DNA from: Bacteroidales bacterium
Lineage (GTDB): Bacteria > Bacteroidota > Bacteroidia > Bacteroidales > UBA7960
Length of the DNA stretch: 35,035 bases
Reading direction: 5' to 3'
Assembly: GCA_007129255.1 (NCBI GenBank)
Contig: SKVW01000231.1
Span: 1-35,035, forward strand
Shown here: positions 26,118 through 33,355 of the stretch, piece after piece
Position numbering within the stretch: position 1 is the stretch's first letter
Layout of the letters: each line of letters starts with the position of its first letter
The notes under the pieces: generated by a model
The model's database searches: none
What the model was told of the DNA's origin: nothing
The model's input: only the letters and a program-made list of their open reading frames with translations
Made by a program: the position numbers and the translations under genes

Positions 26118-27440
26118 ATGGAAATACTCATCAAAGCCTTACAGTTTTTTCTCAGCTTATCCATATTGATCGTTATACACGAAATGGGCCATATGGTCAC
26201 GGCCCGACTATTCAAAACAAGGGTAGAGAAATTTTATCTCTTCTTTAATCCCTGGTTTTCACTTTTTAAATTCAAGCGCGGACAAACCGAATACGGTATG
26301 GGATGGCTTCCCCTCGGCGGTTATGTTAAGATCTCCGGTATGATTGACGAGTCCATGGATAAAGAGCAAATGAAAAAACCACCCCAACCCCATGAGTTCA
26401 GGGCAAAGCCGGCATGGCAACGACTGATCATCATGGTGGGCGGAGTTACTGCAAACATAATCCTTGCAGCCTTTATCTATGTTTTTATGCTCTTTTTTAT
26501 GGGAGAGCAATACCTGCCTGCGCAAAATGCCAAATATGGCATTGTGGCTGATTCCCTGGCAAGGGATATCGGGATGCAGACCGGTGACAAGATCCTGAAA
26601 CTTAACGGAGAGGAAGTAAAAGATTTTATGGATATTCCCAGGGAGTTTGTCATGGGTAATGTGCAGCGGGTTACCGTAGAGCGTAACGACAGCCTGGTTG
26701 AGTTATCAGTCCCGGAAGATTTTTTTGGCCGACTGATCTCCGCCCGGGGCAGGGGCTTTATTTCCCTTCGCTTTCCATTTATTGTGGAAGAAGTAATGGA
26801 AAACTCCCCGGCTGAAAAAGCCGGCCTTAAATCCGGTGATCATATTAAGGGCATTGGCGATCACCATACCTGGTCGTTTGATGGATTTGCCCGCACCATT
26901 CCGGAATATGCAGGCAAGCAAACCACCATCAGGATTGCCCGCAACGATGATGAACTGGACTTGCCTATTGCCATTCCTGAGGAGGCCCGTATCGGAGCCT
27001 ATGTAAAACCTGTAGACCAGATCCTGGATTTTGAAAGACGCGAATATTCTTTCTTTGCTTCCATACCGGCAGGCATTTCAAAAGCATACAATACCACCAC
27101 AACCTACTTCAAAGAACTCCGCCTGCTGTTCCACCCTGAAGTAAAAGCCAGGGAAAGCTTAGGAGGTTTTATTACCATCGGCAGTATTTTTGCCCCAACC
27201 TGGGACTGGGCACACTTCTGGACCATCACCGCACTGCTGTCGGTTGTGCTGGCCATCATGAACCTGCTCCCTATTCCCGCACTGGATGGCGGCCACGTGA
27301 TGTTCCTGATCTATGAGATCATCGTCGGGAAAAAACCTCCCGAAAAATTTATGGAATATGCACAGATGATCGGTATGCTGTTGCTGCTTTCACTGCTAAT
27401 TTTTGTAAACCTCAACGACATACTCCGGCTGTTCAGGTAA
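26118..27440 (+). CDS. rseP: Site-2 zinc metalloprotease RseP
   Basis: VIHEMGHMVTARLF, PDZ region, NLLPIPALDGGHVMF. Confidence 0.95.
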   Translation: MEILIKALQFFLSLSILIVIHEMGHMVTARLFKTRVEKFYLFFNPWFSLFKFKRGQTEYGMGWLPLGGYVKISGMIDESMDKEQMKKPPQPHEFRAKPAWQRLIIMVGGVTANIILAAFIYVFMLFFMGEQYLPAQNAKYGIVADSLARDIGMQTGDKILKLNGEEVKDFMDIPREFVMGNVQRVTVERNDSLVELSVPEDFFGRLISARGRGFISLRFPFIVEEVMENSPAEKAGLKSGDHIKGIGDHHTWSFDGFARTIPEYAGKQTTIRIARNDDELDLPIAIPEEARIGAYVKPVDQILDFERREYSFFASIPAGISKAYNTTTTYFKELRLLFHPEVKARESLGGFITIGSIFAPTWDWAHFWTITALLSVVLAIMNLLPIPALDGGHVMFLIYEIIVGKKPPEKFMEYAQMIGMLLLLSLLIFVNLNDILRLFR

Positions 27441-27599: not shown

Positions 27600-27607
27600 T
27601 ATATTTG
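27600..27607 (+). promoter_or_regulatory. Candidate -7 box for the cphA-like/iadA unit
   Basis: TATATTTG matches TAnnTTTG, about 60 nt upstream of ATG 27669. Confidence 0.4.
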
Positions 27608-27668: not shown

Positions 27669-29366
27669 ATGAAAGCATCCGAGAGAGATTTTGACGTGAG
27701 GAATTTTTATTTCTATAATGGGCCCAACCTTTACCTTGGCTGCAGGTCGCTGGTATTTCACATTTACCTTGATCCGGAAGGCCCCGAAGTCGATTTTTAC
27801 AAACCAGCAGTTTATAATGCTTTCCCGGGCATTAAGCATTACAATGATACCACTGTGGTCGACCTGTTTGTACATGCCCTCATGGAGCTGCTGCGCATGG
27901 GTAGGGAGCTTTTCATAAAGGATTACGCCATTACTGAAGAAGGGGAAGAATACATTGTGGCTGTGGAGTTCCTGGACGATTTATCCGCAGAAAATGCCGT
28001 CCGGCTGCTCAGCGACTGGTTCAAATTCATCAATAAAGGCCGGGAAAAATCCTTTGCCCTGGATGAAAAGATCCGTTTGTTGCACGAAACATTTCAGACC
28101 TCCATTGTCAGCAACCCCACAGTTTATGCACTTTTGGAAGAAGCCGTGAAAAGGGAGATCCCGGCCTTTTATCTTCAGGAGGAAAAACAGTTTCAATGGG
28201 GCTACGGCAAAAACCAACTCCGGGGCCTGGGAGCCAACTTCCATACCGACAGCATCAAGGACACGGAATTTACCATGTATAAAGACCGGGTCACTGAGTT
28301 TCTGATCATGTGTGGTTACCCTACGCCCATGGGAACCAACTGCTTTACCGAAGAAGAAGCGGCAGATGAAGCCAAAAAACTTGGATTTCCCGTGGTGGTA
28401 AAACCGGCAGCCGGAACCAAAGGCTTTGGGATCCAGGAAAATATTGGCTCTGAACCAGAAGTCAGAAAGGCTTTTCAAACCATTATTTCCCAGGCCGGAC
28501 AGGAGGGCTGGCCTTTTGAGGGGGTCTTTGTTCAGCAGCAGATCCGCGGACAGGAGTTTCGATTGTACCTGGCCGCGGGAAAATTTGCGGCAGCGGCCAA
28601 AATGCCGTTCGACAATAACCAAAGTATTGCAGAAAAAGTTCATCCACTTAACATTAAGATGGCTGAATCCATTGCCGGGTTTTTCAACATCAAATGCCTG
28701 GCTGTGGATGTGGTTACTGAAGATCTCTCGCGACCATGGAGCAAAGGCAATTTTGGGATCATCGGCCTGCACGCCGGTCCGGCATTTTTTGAAACCAAAA
28801 CCCAAAAACCCTTCTTTGAAAAAATAGCAGAAAAAATCCTGTTCTCGCACTTTGGCTTTGGCGAACATGCCAGAATTCCCATTATCGCAGGAAATCAAAT
28901 AACCCAAAACCTTGCAGAAAAAATTACTGCCGCTGCTGCAACCCATCGAAACAACTTATTCTTTGGCAGCCTCACCAAAGAAGGGGTATTTTTTAACGGA
29001 CAATTTTTCCAAAAAAATGAAAGCCACGAACAAAATGTCAAAATCATTTTGCGCCATCCCAAAACAGAATTGGCCCTGATTAACCATAACCGTGAAAATA
29101 TTTACCAGAGCGGGTTTTCCCATGACCGGGCAGACCTGGTAATCCTGGAAAACCCCAACCAGCCAGAAGAAAAACTTAAAGAAATGATCTTGCCCGGGGG
29201 CTGGCTCATCCTCATTCAAGGCGGGGAAATACAGCTTCTGGTTAACAGGGAAACCAAAAAAACCCTTTCCTTCGAAAAAGAAACCCTGAAAGAAGAAAAA
29301 CTGCTGGAAATGCTGAACCCCCTGATAAAAGAATTGTTGGATAAATATGAACGAACCATTCCATAA
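27669..29366 (+). CDS. Shortened cyanophycin-synthetase (CphA)-like protein: N domain + reduced ATP-grasp + truncated Mur-ligase remnant; possibly a pseudo-enzyme
   Basis: FYNGPNLYLGCRSLVFHIYL; REIPAFYLQEEKQFQWGYGKNQLRGLGANFHTDSIKDTEFTMYKDRVTEFLIMCGYPTPMG...LGFPVVVKPAAGTKGFGI; HPLNIKMAESIAGFFNIKCLAVDVVTEDLSRPW; RIPIIAGNQITQN...TKEGVFFNGQFFQKNESHEQNVKIILRHPKTELALINHNRENIYQSGFSHDRADLVILEN aligns by eye with the corresponding CphA1 segments. Confidence 0.75.
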   Translation: MKASERDFDVRNFYFYNGPNLYLGCRSLVFHIYLDPEGPEVDFYKPAVYNAFPGIKHYNDTTVVDLFVHALMELLRMGRELFIKDYAITEEGEEYIVAVEFLDDLSAENAVRLLSDWFKFINKGREKSFALDEKIRLLHETFQTSIVSNPTVYALLEEAVKREIPAFYLQEEKQFQWGYGKNQLRGLGANFHTDSIKDTEFTMYKDRVTEFLIMCGYPTPMGTNCFTEEEAADEAKKLGFPVVVKPAAGTKGFGIQENIGSEPEVRKAFQTIISQAGQEGWPFEGVFVQQQIRGQEFRLYLAAGKFAAAAKMPFDNNQSIAEKVHPLNIKMAESIAGFFNIKCLAVDVVTEDLSRPWSKGNFGIIGLHAGPAFFETKTQKPFFEKIAEKILFSHFGFGEHARIPIIAGNQITQNLAEKITAAAATHRNNLFFGSLTKEGVFFNGQFFQKNESHEQNVKIILRHPKTELALINHNRENIYQSGFSHDRADLVILENPNQPEEKLKEMILPGGWLILIQGGEIQLLVNRETKKTLSFEKETLKEEKLLEMLNPLIKELLDKYERTIP

Positions 29367-29371
29367 AAAAT

Positions 29372-30532
29372 ATGATCCTGTTTAAAAACTGCGAAGTGTA
29401 TTCACCCGACCGTATCGGGAAAAGAGATGTACTAATTGGCGGACAAAAGATCCTTGCCATAGAGAAAAAAATTGATCCTCCCAAAGGTTTGGAAGTGGAG
29501 ATAATCAAAGCCCAGGGCCTAAAAATGATTCCCGGGCTGATTGATGCGCACGTACACATTGCCGGGGCCGGCGGGGAAGGAGGCCCGGCCTCCCGCACCC
29601 CCGAGATGCAATTGAGTCATATGCTGGAAGCCGGGGTTACTACGGTAATCGGGTGTCTGGGGACAGACGGCCTTACCCGCAGCGTGGAATCGGTGCTGAT
29701 GAAAGCCAAAGCCCTGAAGCAGGAGGGTGTGAGCGCCTGGATCTATACCGGCGCCTACCAGGTACCAACTCCAACCATCCTTGGAGATGTGGGCAAAGAT
29801 ATCGCCATGATTGAAGAGGTGATTGGTGCCGGAGAAATTGCCCTTTCCGACCACCGCTCCTCCTGCCCCACCACCGATGAACTCATCCGCCTGACCATGC
29901 ACGCCCGGGTCGGAGGAATGCTTGGGGGTAAAGCCGGCATTGTCAATATCCACATGGGAGATGCCCGCGACCCTTTTAAACCCCTCTACCAAGCGGTGGG
30001 AAAAAGTGAACTCAGGCTGACGCAGTTCTTACCCACTCACTGCAACCGCAACGAATACATTTTTGAAGATGCCAAAACCTATGGGAAAAAGGGATACGTG
30101 GATATCACTGCAAGCTCATACCCCTACTTTCCACAGTATGAAATAAAACCTTCCAAAGCCATTGCCGAGCTGGTGAAGGCCAAAGTACCCCTGGAGCATA
30201 TCACCATGTCCAGCGACGGATGCGGCTCCCTGCCCGACTTTGATGAAAAGGGTAACCTGAAAAGCCTGGAATCCGGATTCCCAAAATCCATTTTTGATGA
30301 AATGGTCGCCACCGTCAAAGAAGAAGACATGAACCTGGAACAGGCCCTTAAAGTGGTGACTTCCAATGTGGCCGACATCCTGTGGCTGAAACAAAAAGGA
30401 AGGGTGGAAACAGGTAAGGATGCCGATCTGGTGCTGCTGGATGATCAGTTTAATATTGTACACATGACCGCCATGGGCAAAATGATGGTAAGAAACACCC
30501 AAATGCTCAAAAAAGGCAGCTACGAAAAATAA
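29372..30532 (+). CDS. iadA: Isoaspartyl (beta-aspartyl) dipeptidase, metallo-amidohydrolase family M38
   Basis: PGLIDAHVHIAGAGGEGGPASRTPE, SAWIYTGAYQVPTPTI, SDHRSS, NIHMGDA, LPTHCNRN, MSSDGCGSLPDFDEKGNL. Confidence 0.93.
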   Translation: MILFKNCEVYSPDRIGKRDVLIGGQKILAIEKKIDPPKGLEVEIIKAQGLKMIPGLIDAHVHIAGAGGEGGPASRTPEMQLSHMLEAGVTTVIGCLGTDGLTRSVESVLMKAKALKQEGVSAWIYTGAYQVPTPTILGDVGKDIAMIEEVIGAGEIALSDHRSSCPTTDELIRLTMHARVGGMLGGKAGIVNIHMGDARDPFKPLYQAVGKSELRLTQFLPTHCNRNEYIFEDAKTYGKKGYVDITASSYPYFPQYEIKPSKAIAELVKAKVPLEHITMSSDGCGSLPDFDEKGNLKSLESGFPKSIFDEMVATVKEEDMNLEQALKVVTSNVADILWLKQKGRVETGKDADLVLLDDQFNIVHMTAMGKMMVRNTQMLKKGSYEK

Positions 30533-30552: not shown

Positions 30553-30583
30553 ACCCCGCAAGGCTTTACCTGGGGTTTTCTTT
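30553..30583 (+). terminator. Possible terminator after iadA
   Basis: ACCCCGCAAGG-ctttA-CCTGGGGT imperfect stem followed by TTTCTTT. Confidence 0.5.
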
Positions 30584-30590
30584 AAATATC

Positions 30591-31526
30591 ATGCTGAAAA
30601 AATTTCAGATCAGTATTCTTGGTTCGTCGGCTGCTACCCCAACTTCACTGCGGCATACCACGGCACAGGTCCTGCATTTTCACAACAAGCTTTTTCTGCT
30701 GGATTGTGCCGAAGGCACCCAGATGCAGATACGTCGCTTTAAGTTGCCCATAATGAAGTTTGATCACATTTTCATCAGCCACCTGCACGGCGATCATTAC
30801 CTGGGGCTTCCCGGATTGCTCTTTTCATACCACCTGCTGGGACGCGACAAAGACATACATATCTACAGCCCTCCGGGATTGAAAGAGATCATTGAGGTGC
30901 AGTTCAGGATCTCCGGACTCAAACCGGTTTTCAACATCATTTACCATGAATTGAAAAAGGCCCGGGAAATCATATACGAGGACCGCTACCTTACTGTGGA
31001 AACCATGGAAATGGAACATCGTCTGCCCACCTTCGGGTTTTTTTTCAGGGAAAAACTCCTGGAAAAGAATATCAAAAAAGAAAGCATCGTTCAGTATGAT
31101 ATCCCGGTGGAAAAAATCCCGGAAATAAAAAAGGGAGAAGATTTTGTAACACCGGACGGCAAGGTGATCCCCAACAGCCGGATCACCATCAGCCCGTCAC
31201 GCCCCAGAAGCTATGCTTTTTGCGGAGATACCGCCTATACGGAAAAATTTCTTGACCAGATTAAGGGTGCAGACCTGCTTTATCATGAAGCCACCTTTTT
31301 AAATGACAAAGCAGCCATCGCCCGGGAAAAATCCCACAGCACTACTGTTGAAGCGGCTACCCTGGCCAAAAAAGCGGGAGTGAAAAAGTTGTTGCTGGGG
31401 CATTACTCGGCAAGGTACAAGGAAATGGCCGAATTTACCAAAGAAGCCAGGGAGGTTTTTCCAAACACCATCATTGCTGAGGAAGGGGATATTGTAAAGG
31501 TGGGAGAAAACGCGAGTCCTGCTTAA
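30591..31526 (+). CDS. rnz: Ribonuclease Z
   Basis: LGSSAATPTSLRHTTAQVL...LLDCAEGTQMQIRR...IFISHLHGDHYLGLPGLL...HEATF...LLLGHYSARY. Confidence 0.95.
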   Translation: MLKKFQISILGSSAATPTSLRHTTAQVLHFHNKLFLLDCAEGTQMQIRRFKLPIMKFDHIFISHLHGDHYLGLPGLLFSYHLLGRDKDIHIYSPPGLKEIIEVQFRISGLKPVFNIIYHELKKAREIIYEDRYLTVETMEMEHRLPTFGFFFREKLLEKNIKKESIVQYDIPVEKIPEIKKGEDFVTPDGKVIPNSRITISPSRPRSYAFCGDTAYTEKFLDQIKGADLLYHEATFLNDKAAIAREKSHSTTVEAATLAKKAGVKKLLLGHYSARYKEMAEFTKEAREVFPNTIIAEEGDIVKVGENASPA

Positions 31527-32515: not shown

Positions 32516-33355
32516 TTAAGGTAAACTTTCTATTTGCGTTTTGATTTTACGAAGCAGGAAACTGTCGGTAACGGCATCGCTGAGAAAATTAAGGGTTTCG
32601 GTATCATAAATATTGGCGATGGCTTTTTTCCTGACTTCGAAATCGGGATCATTCAGGGCAATTTCCCTGAGTACCTTCACATCGGAGATCCTTGATACGG
32701 CCTGTCCCCTGACGTAATAATCCTGATCGGAGGTGGCTACCTCCTGCACCACCACCGGGTCGTCAATCTGGTGAACCGCCAGTGCCCTCACGTAAAAATC
32801 CTGATCATTCAGGGCAATAAAGCTAAGCACTTGTTGATCGGTGATCTTTTTCAGCGCATCCGAACGAACATAAAAATCGCTGTTGGTACGGGCTATGTGG
32901 GCAAGCACCTGTTGATCAGTGATGGCCTGAACCGCAGCCGATTTAATATCCCGGTCGGTGATTCCTTCCACCAGGCTGGCCAGCACATCATTGTCGGTAA
33001 TGTTTGACAGGGCATCCTTGCAGATATAATAATCGTTCTGACTGCTTAAAACAATTTTTGCCAGGGATTTGGGGCATTCGACCTTTTTAACCGCCGCCAG
33101 TCGCACATAATAATCTTTTTCTTCATGAGCTATGCGAACCAGCATTTGCTGGTCCTCAATCTTTTCAACTGCCGTTTGCCTGACAAAATAATCCGGGTCA
33201 TTCAACGCAATGCGCCAAAGAATATTCTGATCCTGAATTTGTTTTATGGCATTGGCCCGCACAAAATAATCGGGAGCATGCAAAGCCTGATCAATGACTT
33301 TATCCTTGCTGGCTTTGGAAGAAGCGGTTTGTTTTGAAGGGCGATGGCTCATCAT
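32516..33355 (-). CDS. HEAT-like solenoid protein made of about nine 26-aa repeats
   Basis: Repeating D-x-D-[YF]-x-V-R-x-x-A-[VIL]-x-x-I-x-D-x-x-[VIM]-L-x-x-I-A units across nearly the whole ORF. Confidence 0.8.
   Translation of the reverse strand: MMSHRPSKQTASSKASKDKVIDQALHAPDYFVRANAIKQIQDQNILWRIALNDPDYFVRQTAVEKIEDQQMLVRIAHEEKDYYVRLAAVKKVECPKSLAKIVLSSQNDYYICKDALSNITDNDVLASLVEGITDRDIKSAAVQAITDQQVLAHIARTNSDFYVRSDALKKITDQQVLSFIALNDQDFYVRALAVHQIDDPVVVQEVATSDQDYYVRGQAVSRISDVKVLREIALNDPDFEVRKKAIANIYDTETLNFLSDAVTDSFLLRKIKTQIESLP

Follow-up and report, generated by a model that had tools for sequence, protein, structure and literature searches.

A predicted pseudoenzyme descended from cyanophycin synthetase 2 adjoins an isoaspartyl dipeptidase gene in a Bacteroidales bacterium

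Cyanophycin synthetase 2 (CphA2) is a β-Asp-Arg polymerase. Published papers on cyanophycin call it a cyanobacterial enzyme, and an earlier mention of CphA2-like enzymes from other bacteria concerns Bacillus horikoshii (PMC5532821). CphA2 is described as lacking both the P-loop of the M domain and the M lid (PMC9427784). In TeCphA1, the Gω module (residues 325 to 399) surrounds the substrate site, Glu450 binds Mg, and Glu215 and Arg309 are in contact with the side chain of the terminal Arg and with the terminal carboxylate, respectively (PMC9427784). The zinc and substrate residues of the isoaspartyl dipeptidase (IadA) of Leucothrix mucor, LmIadA, are listed in PMC10206079, according to which the isoaspartyl dipeptidases of many carriers of cyanophycin genes in the Bacteroidota are still undiscovered. 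In the account given there, which cites Ben Hania et al. 2017, the example of a cyanophycin utilization locus comes from a Bacteroidetes scavenger of cyanobacteria.

We analyzed a window of 35,035 nucleotides from a Bacteroidales bacterium, in which an earlier note had claimed a unit of two genes, one CphA-like (gene A) and one encoding IadA (gene B). Both open reading frames are present as claimed, on the same strand and 5 nt apart, with rseP (26118-27440) before the pair and rnz (30591-31526) after it:

27600..27607, + strand: TATATTTG, a pattern match to the Bacteroidota -7 box TAnnTTTG; the A-B transcript likely starts in this region
27669..29366, + strand: gene A, a catalytically degraded CphA2 derivative (pseudo-CphA2) of 565 aa, assigned from CphA2 homology, the structural model, and dN/dS
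29372..30532, + strand: gene B, isoaspartyl dipeptidase iadA, 386 aa, assigned from its TIGR01975 score and intact active-site residues

Profile searches upheld both family assignments. The score of gene A was 144 bits against a curated CphA1 cut-off of 850, which places it outside CphA1, and its match to the CphA profile stopped near position 572 of 862. The name CphA-like therefore stands at the level of the family, and the more exact description is a CphA2 derivative whose ligase active site is destroyed. The closest solved structures were those of CphA2 (7ta5, E 5e-80; 8fxh, E 5e-79), and an AlphaFold model of gene A with a mean pLDDT of 87.6 had CphA2 structures 8fxi and 7ta5 as its best PDB matches. 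The homology to CphA2 (PDB 7ta5, 8fxh, 8fxi) extends over the full length and includes the fold; a pattern scan of gene A detected no M-domain P-loop motif, and the M lid is absent as well, as in CphA2. By all of these measures, gene A evidently descends from CphA2.

Unlike CphA2, gene A is without Gω and without catalytic residues of the G domain, a loss that destroys the one active site a CphA2 has. The positions concerned, located by alignment, are as follows:

28266..28268, + strand: codon 200, Glu, equivalent to TeCphA1 Glu215, retained
28416..28418, + strand: codon 250, Thr in place of the CphA2 P-loop His (GHKG)
28560..28562, + strand: codon 298, Arg, equivalent to TeCphA1 Arg309, retained
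28602..28628, + strand: junction at the missing Gω module (about residues 312-320), from alignment to the intact relative L102
28764..28772, + strand: codons 366-368, GLH replacing the EIN metal-binding motif

Approximately 75 residues, the Gω module, are missing from the only catalytic domain of gene A, and the gap coincides with TeCphA1 residues 325-399; the distance from the Arg323 position to the end of the NISAGG motif is 8 residues in gene A compared to 77 in intact L102. We compared gene A to 75 other CphA2-type sequences, 14 cyanobacterial and 61 from elsewhere. The Glu and Asn of the EIN motif are invariant in all 75, whereas in gene A the Glu has become Gly and the Asn, two residues on, has become His. 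The P-loop His is likewise present in each of them, and altogether gene A has lost this residue and the equivalents of R323, N394, S396, and E450, all five invariant in the comparison set. Gene A does not have the intact G-domain active site, with Gω and the Mg-binding Glu, that is expected of a CphA2. Equating the P-loop His with TeCphA1 His267 was considered and dropped, because loop lengths place it apparently one position earlier. The sister species L082 (= G680), which belongs to the same genus and is 75% identical in gene A, shares the deletion; there too, Glu has changed to Gly and Asn to His (GMH at the motif position), and Ala stands for the P-loop His. An assembly error was rejected as the source of the Gω deletion, since the deletion recurs in L082, whose sequence comes from a separate assembly. 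We infer from the lost catalytic parts that the gene A protein is inactive as a ligase, and a suggestion in the earlier note, that the pair handles a non-cyanophycin isopeptide polymer, is unlikely as far as synthesis by gene A is concerned, because the ligase site is gone.

Other parts of the site remain. Gene A has equivalents (E200 and R298) of the residue pair with which CphA1 holds the terminal β-Asp-Arg unit. The window copy also still has the equivalents of Lys220, Lys261, and Asp431, which contact phosphate or Mg, and might therefore bind nucleotide weakly. These three residues and the folded ATP-grasp core of the predicted model would be in keeping with a gene A product that has kept ATP-dependent ligase activity but uses a different substrate in an atypical active site. 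We nevertheless judge this highly improbable: the Mg-binding Glu, the following Asn, the equivalent of the substrate residue Arg323, and the whole of Gω are gone, the Lys220 equivalent is also lost in L082 (Leu), and single-residue mutations in this same catalytic set impaired TeCphA1 (PMC9427784).

Gene B scored above the curated IadA cut-off (TIGR01975, 474 bits versus 331.25) and encodes the only IadA over that cut-off in the genome, on contig C51. Its residues H60, H62, E69, T98, E155, H194, H223, and R226 correspond to those of LmIadA with the numbering shifted by 4 throughout, and the zinc- and substrate-binding residues of an IadA are thus present. Gene B is by these features an intact IadA, predicted to hydrolyze β-aspartyl dipeptides. 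It shares family membership and active-site residues with the IadA enzymes of L. mucor and Escherichia coli, and as in the L. mucor enzyme, Glu replaces the carboxylated Lys; unlike them, it is paired with a pseudo-CphA2 and does not stand alone or with cphA1 and cphB. Judging from the spacing, genes A and B likely share a transcript. The -7 box reported at 27600 is indeed there and is kept in L082, within a block identical in both species, at -65 in L082 versus -69 in the window. Just upstream, L082 has a strong hairpin with T residues after it (z -4.8), and the corresponding window hairpin is weak (z -0.4). A terminator proposed at 30553, after iadA, gained no support (z -0.47). Scans for sigma-70 promoters and terminators returned about as many sites as in shuffled sequence.

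The closest counterpart in gene order was found in related Bacteroidales. The complete order rseP-cyanophycinase-cphA2-iadA-rnz occurs in L102, L106, and L124, and the order from cyanophycinase to rnz, without a visible rseP, in L083, L103, and L105; lplA follows rnz in some related loci. Position and gene order around the pair are the same as in the window, but the relatives keep the cyanophycinase gene and an intact CphA2. The earlier note had asked whether Bacteroidota in general have the pair between rseP and rnz and had held that a pair not conserved in relatives would count against it; the pair does recur there. Among 70 loci with a visible gene downstream of a CphA2-type gene, iadA was directly downstream in 21, and because of this frequency and the recurrence between rseP and rnz, the adjacency of cphA2 and iadA is above chance. 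The A-B pair is, on the evidence of gene order, a remnant of a cyanophycinase-CphA2-IadA locus between rseP and rnz, and comparable gene sets have been described; the pair, which the earlier note named as its best candidate for an undescribed system, is thus no such system built from scratch. The note also did not recognize that the synthetase is without its catalytic apparatus. No cyanophycinase remnant was found in the 228-nt gap after rseP in the window. In other loci, a protein of 560 to 571 aa without a Pfam match is encoded directly upstream of some CphA2 copies (L104:3170-4852, L091:3135-4850), and a CphA1 locus has a 476-aa ATP-grasp protein between cyanophycinase and iadA (L070:10632-12062).

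Gene A of the window and that of L082 are of equal length, with all 565 codons open and no indel. The dN/dS ratio between the two was 0.128 at a dS of 1.10 (bootstrap 0.091-0.171), an estimate that rests on one sister genome, G680, which is 73% complete. When neutral evolution was simulated over the same distance (500 runs), the sequences acquired 23 stops on average and at least 8, and identity was about 16%. The open frame, the lack of indels, and the low dN/dS relative to this simulation therefore indicate that gene A was maintained as a protein, under strong purifying selection, after its catalytic site was lost. For the comparison genes, the ratios between the same two species were 0.047 (IadA), 0.048 (RseP), 0.074 (Rnz), and 0.26 (LplA). 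The looser constraint on gene A than on IadA (0.128 versus 0.047) counts against our best explanation, given below. A decaying pseudogene that by chance has no stop codon yet, next to an iadA that alone matters, would account for gene A being more relaxed than its neighbors IadA and RseP and for the long stem branch that followed the loss of the active site; in the tree, the window gene and its L082 counterpart are nested among the syntenic CphA2 genes on a stem of 0.69-0.79. Set against the low dN/dS at equal length without indels in two species, and against a simulated minimum of 8 stops, such decay is very unlikely. That gene A encodes a dead but selected pseudoenzyme and is no decaying gene is, by these sequence comparisons, well supported.

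A second CphA2 derivative without Gω, L175 (L180:6381-8177, - strand; G699), encodes 598 aa in another genus of the family and is flanked on one side by a RecQ-type helicase gene and on the other by a gene for 505 aa that has no Pfam match. A single origin of the Gω loss in L175 and the window gene was rejected (p-AU 5.6e-9, with the caveat of a long L175 branch), and Gω was apparently lost independently a second time. Because L175 does not adjoin iadA, partnership with IadA is not general for genes lacking Gω. This fits an alternative in which gene A is selected for a function that involves neither β-aspartyl peptides nor IadA and has iadA as a neighbor by block inheritance, as would also be expected from the ancestral gene order. 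However, only 5 to 6 nt separate the two genes in both sister species, compared to 33 to 116 nt in the closest syntenic relatives, and the equivalents of the peptide-contacting residues are kept; we consider an unrelated function unlikely.

The claim of a pair without cphA1 held: a profile search found no CphA1 over the cut-off in the window's genome, which is 95% complete. The claim of no cyanophycinase held for the window and failed for the genome, in which contig C127 carries a cyanophycinase-family gene that scored 156 bits versus a cut-off of 126.6. Its protein begins with a signal-like stretch and, by eye, a lipobox-like FLSC motif. On C127, a SusD-family gene and a cleaved-adhesin-domain gene precede the cyanophycinase-family gene, which is followed by a YfcC-like carrier scoring below its curated cut-off; this putative cyanophycin-scavenging cluster (L042:1-4462, G000 C127) lies on a contig that ends upstream, where SusC could lie. 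Thus, as in the cyanophycin utilization locus in the account cited above, a cyanophycinase-family gene, a transporter, and iadA are all present and CphA1 was not found; as far as that account describes the locus, the differences are that iadA (C51) and cyanophycinase (C127) are here on different contigs and that a dead CphA2 accompanies iadA.

Our preferred reading, which we hold to be probable, is that gene A is an inactive CphA2 derivative kept by selection after the lineage stopped making cyanophycin, with a role as a binder of β-aspartyl peptides or a regulator of IadA, and that the product of gene B works as IadA. Between rseP and rnz, the ancestor would have had genes for cyanophycinase, CphA2, and IadA; in the window's genus, the cyanophycinase of the locus and CphA1 would have disappeared, and neither Gω nor the Mg-binding motif of CphA2 would have survived. 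The cell is probably a scavenger of cyanophycin or β-aspartyl dipeptides, with a route in which an exported cyanophycinase-family lipoprotein would release β-Asp-Arg, the carrier would import it, and IadA would split it into Asp and Arg. The gene A protein, as a noncatalytic binder of β-Asp-Arg or of cyanophycin ends, might control or tether IadA or buffer the dipeptide. These results suggest that the dead enzyme took a new noncatalytic job; taken alone, its binding or regulatory role is a tentative proposal. Of the β-aspartyl-dipeptide sensing or salvage module first put forward, the salvage setting fits the intact IadA, the exported cyanophycinase-family lipoprotein, the YfcC-like carrier, and the lack of CphA1, and sensing or binding is only possible. 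A more specific scheme, in which the dead CphA2 is a sensor or regulatory subunit that binds β-Asp-Arg or cyanophycin ends, controls or tethers IadA, and so couples dipeptide supply to the release of Asp and Arg in a polymer scavenger, with clean removal of Gω as a repeated route, is conceivable but doubtful.

The component families are known; what is new is a CphA2 without Gω that is catalytically dead yet selected. Searches for "cyanophycin synthetase" with "pseudoenzyme," or for a conserved pseudo-CphA2, found no paper in the literature searched, whose coverage leaves out most subscription journals. Gene A has a structural lesion that can be defined, shows signs of selection, and is encoded together with an apparently working partner, which makes it a candidate in which a new role is directly testable.

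CphA2-type genes occurred in 28 of the 395 sampled genomes of the order, and only that of the window matched without a break at the Gω position. Within the family, a CphA1-type gene was detected in all eight searched genomes with an intact CphA2 (428-784 bits, below the cut-off of 850) and in none of the three with Gω-less genes, one of which, G680, is only 73% complete. CphA2-type genes lie well outside cyanobacteria, adjoining cyanophycinase and iadA in Bacteroidota. Further ones (L117, L144, L147, L148, L128, L129, L133, L100, and L122) are on contigs with the labels SAR324, Coatesbacteria, Fermentibacteria, Ignavibacteria, Kapaibacteria, and Cloacimonadota, and often adjoin cyanophycinase or iadA.

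Many Bacteroidota with CphA2 also encode a CphA1-type protein of approximately 735 aa that has no M lid and a degraded M P-loop (for example, L052:2119-4326 on the - strand, L073:6070-8271, L074:4813-7017, and L079:6702-8939). The N-domain motif Cx19HxxEH is kept in those checked, and these proteins possibly represent a second functional split of cyanophycin synthetase. In the window, a HEAT-repeat protein gene (32516-33355, - strand) lies three genes downstream of the A-B pair, and a 42% identical relative of its product is encoded at L077:10253-11110, directly adjoining a CphA1-type gene.
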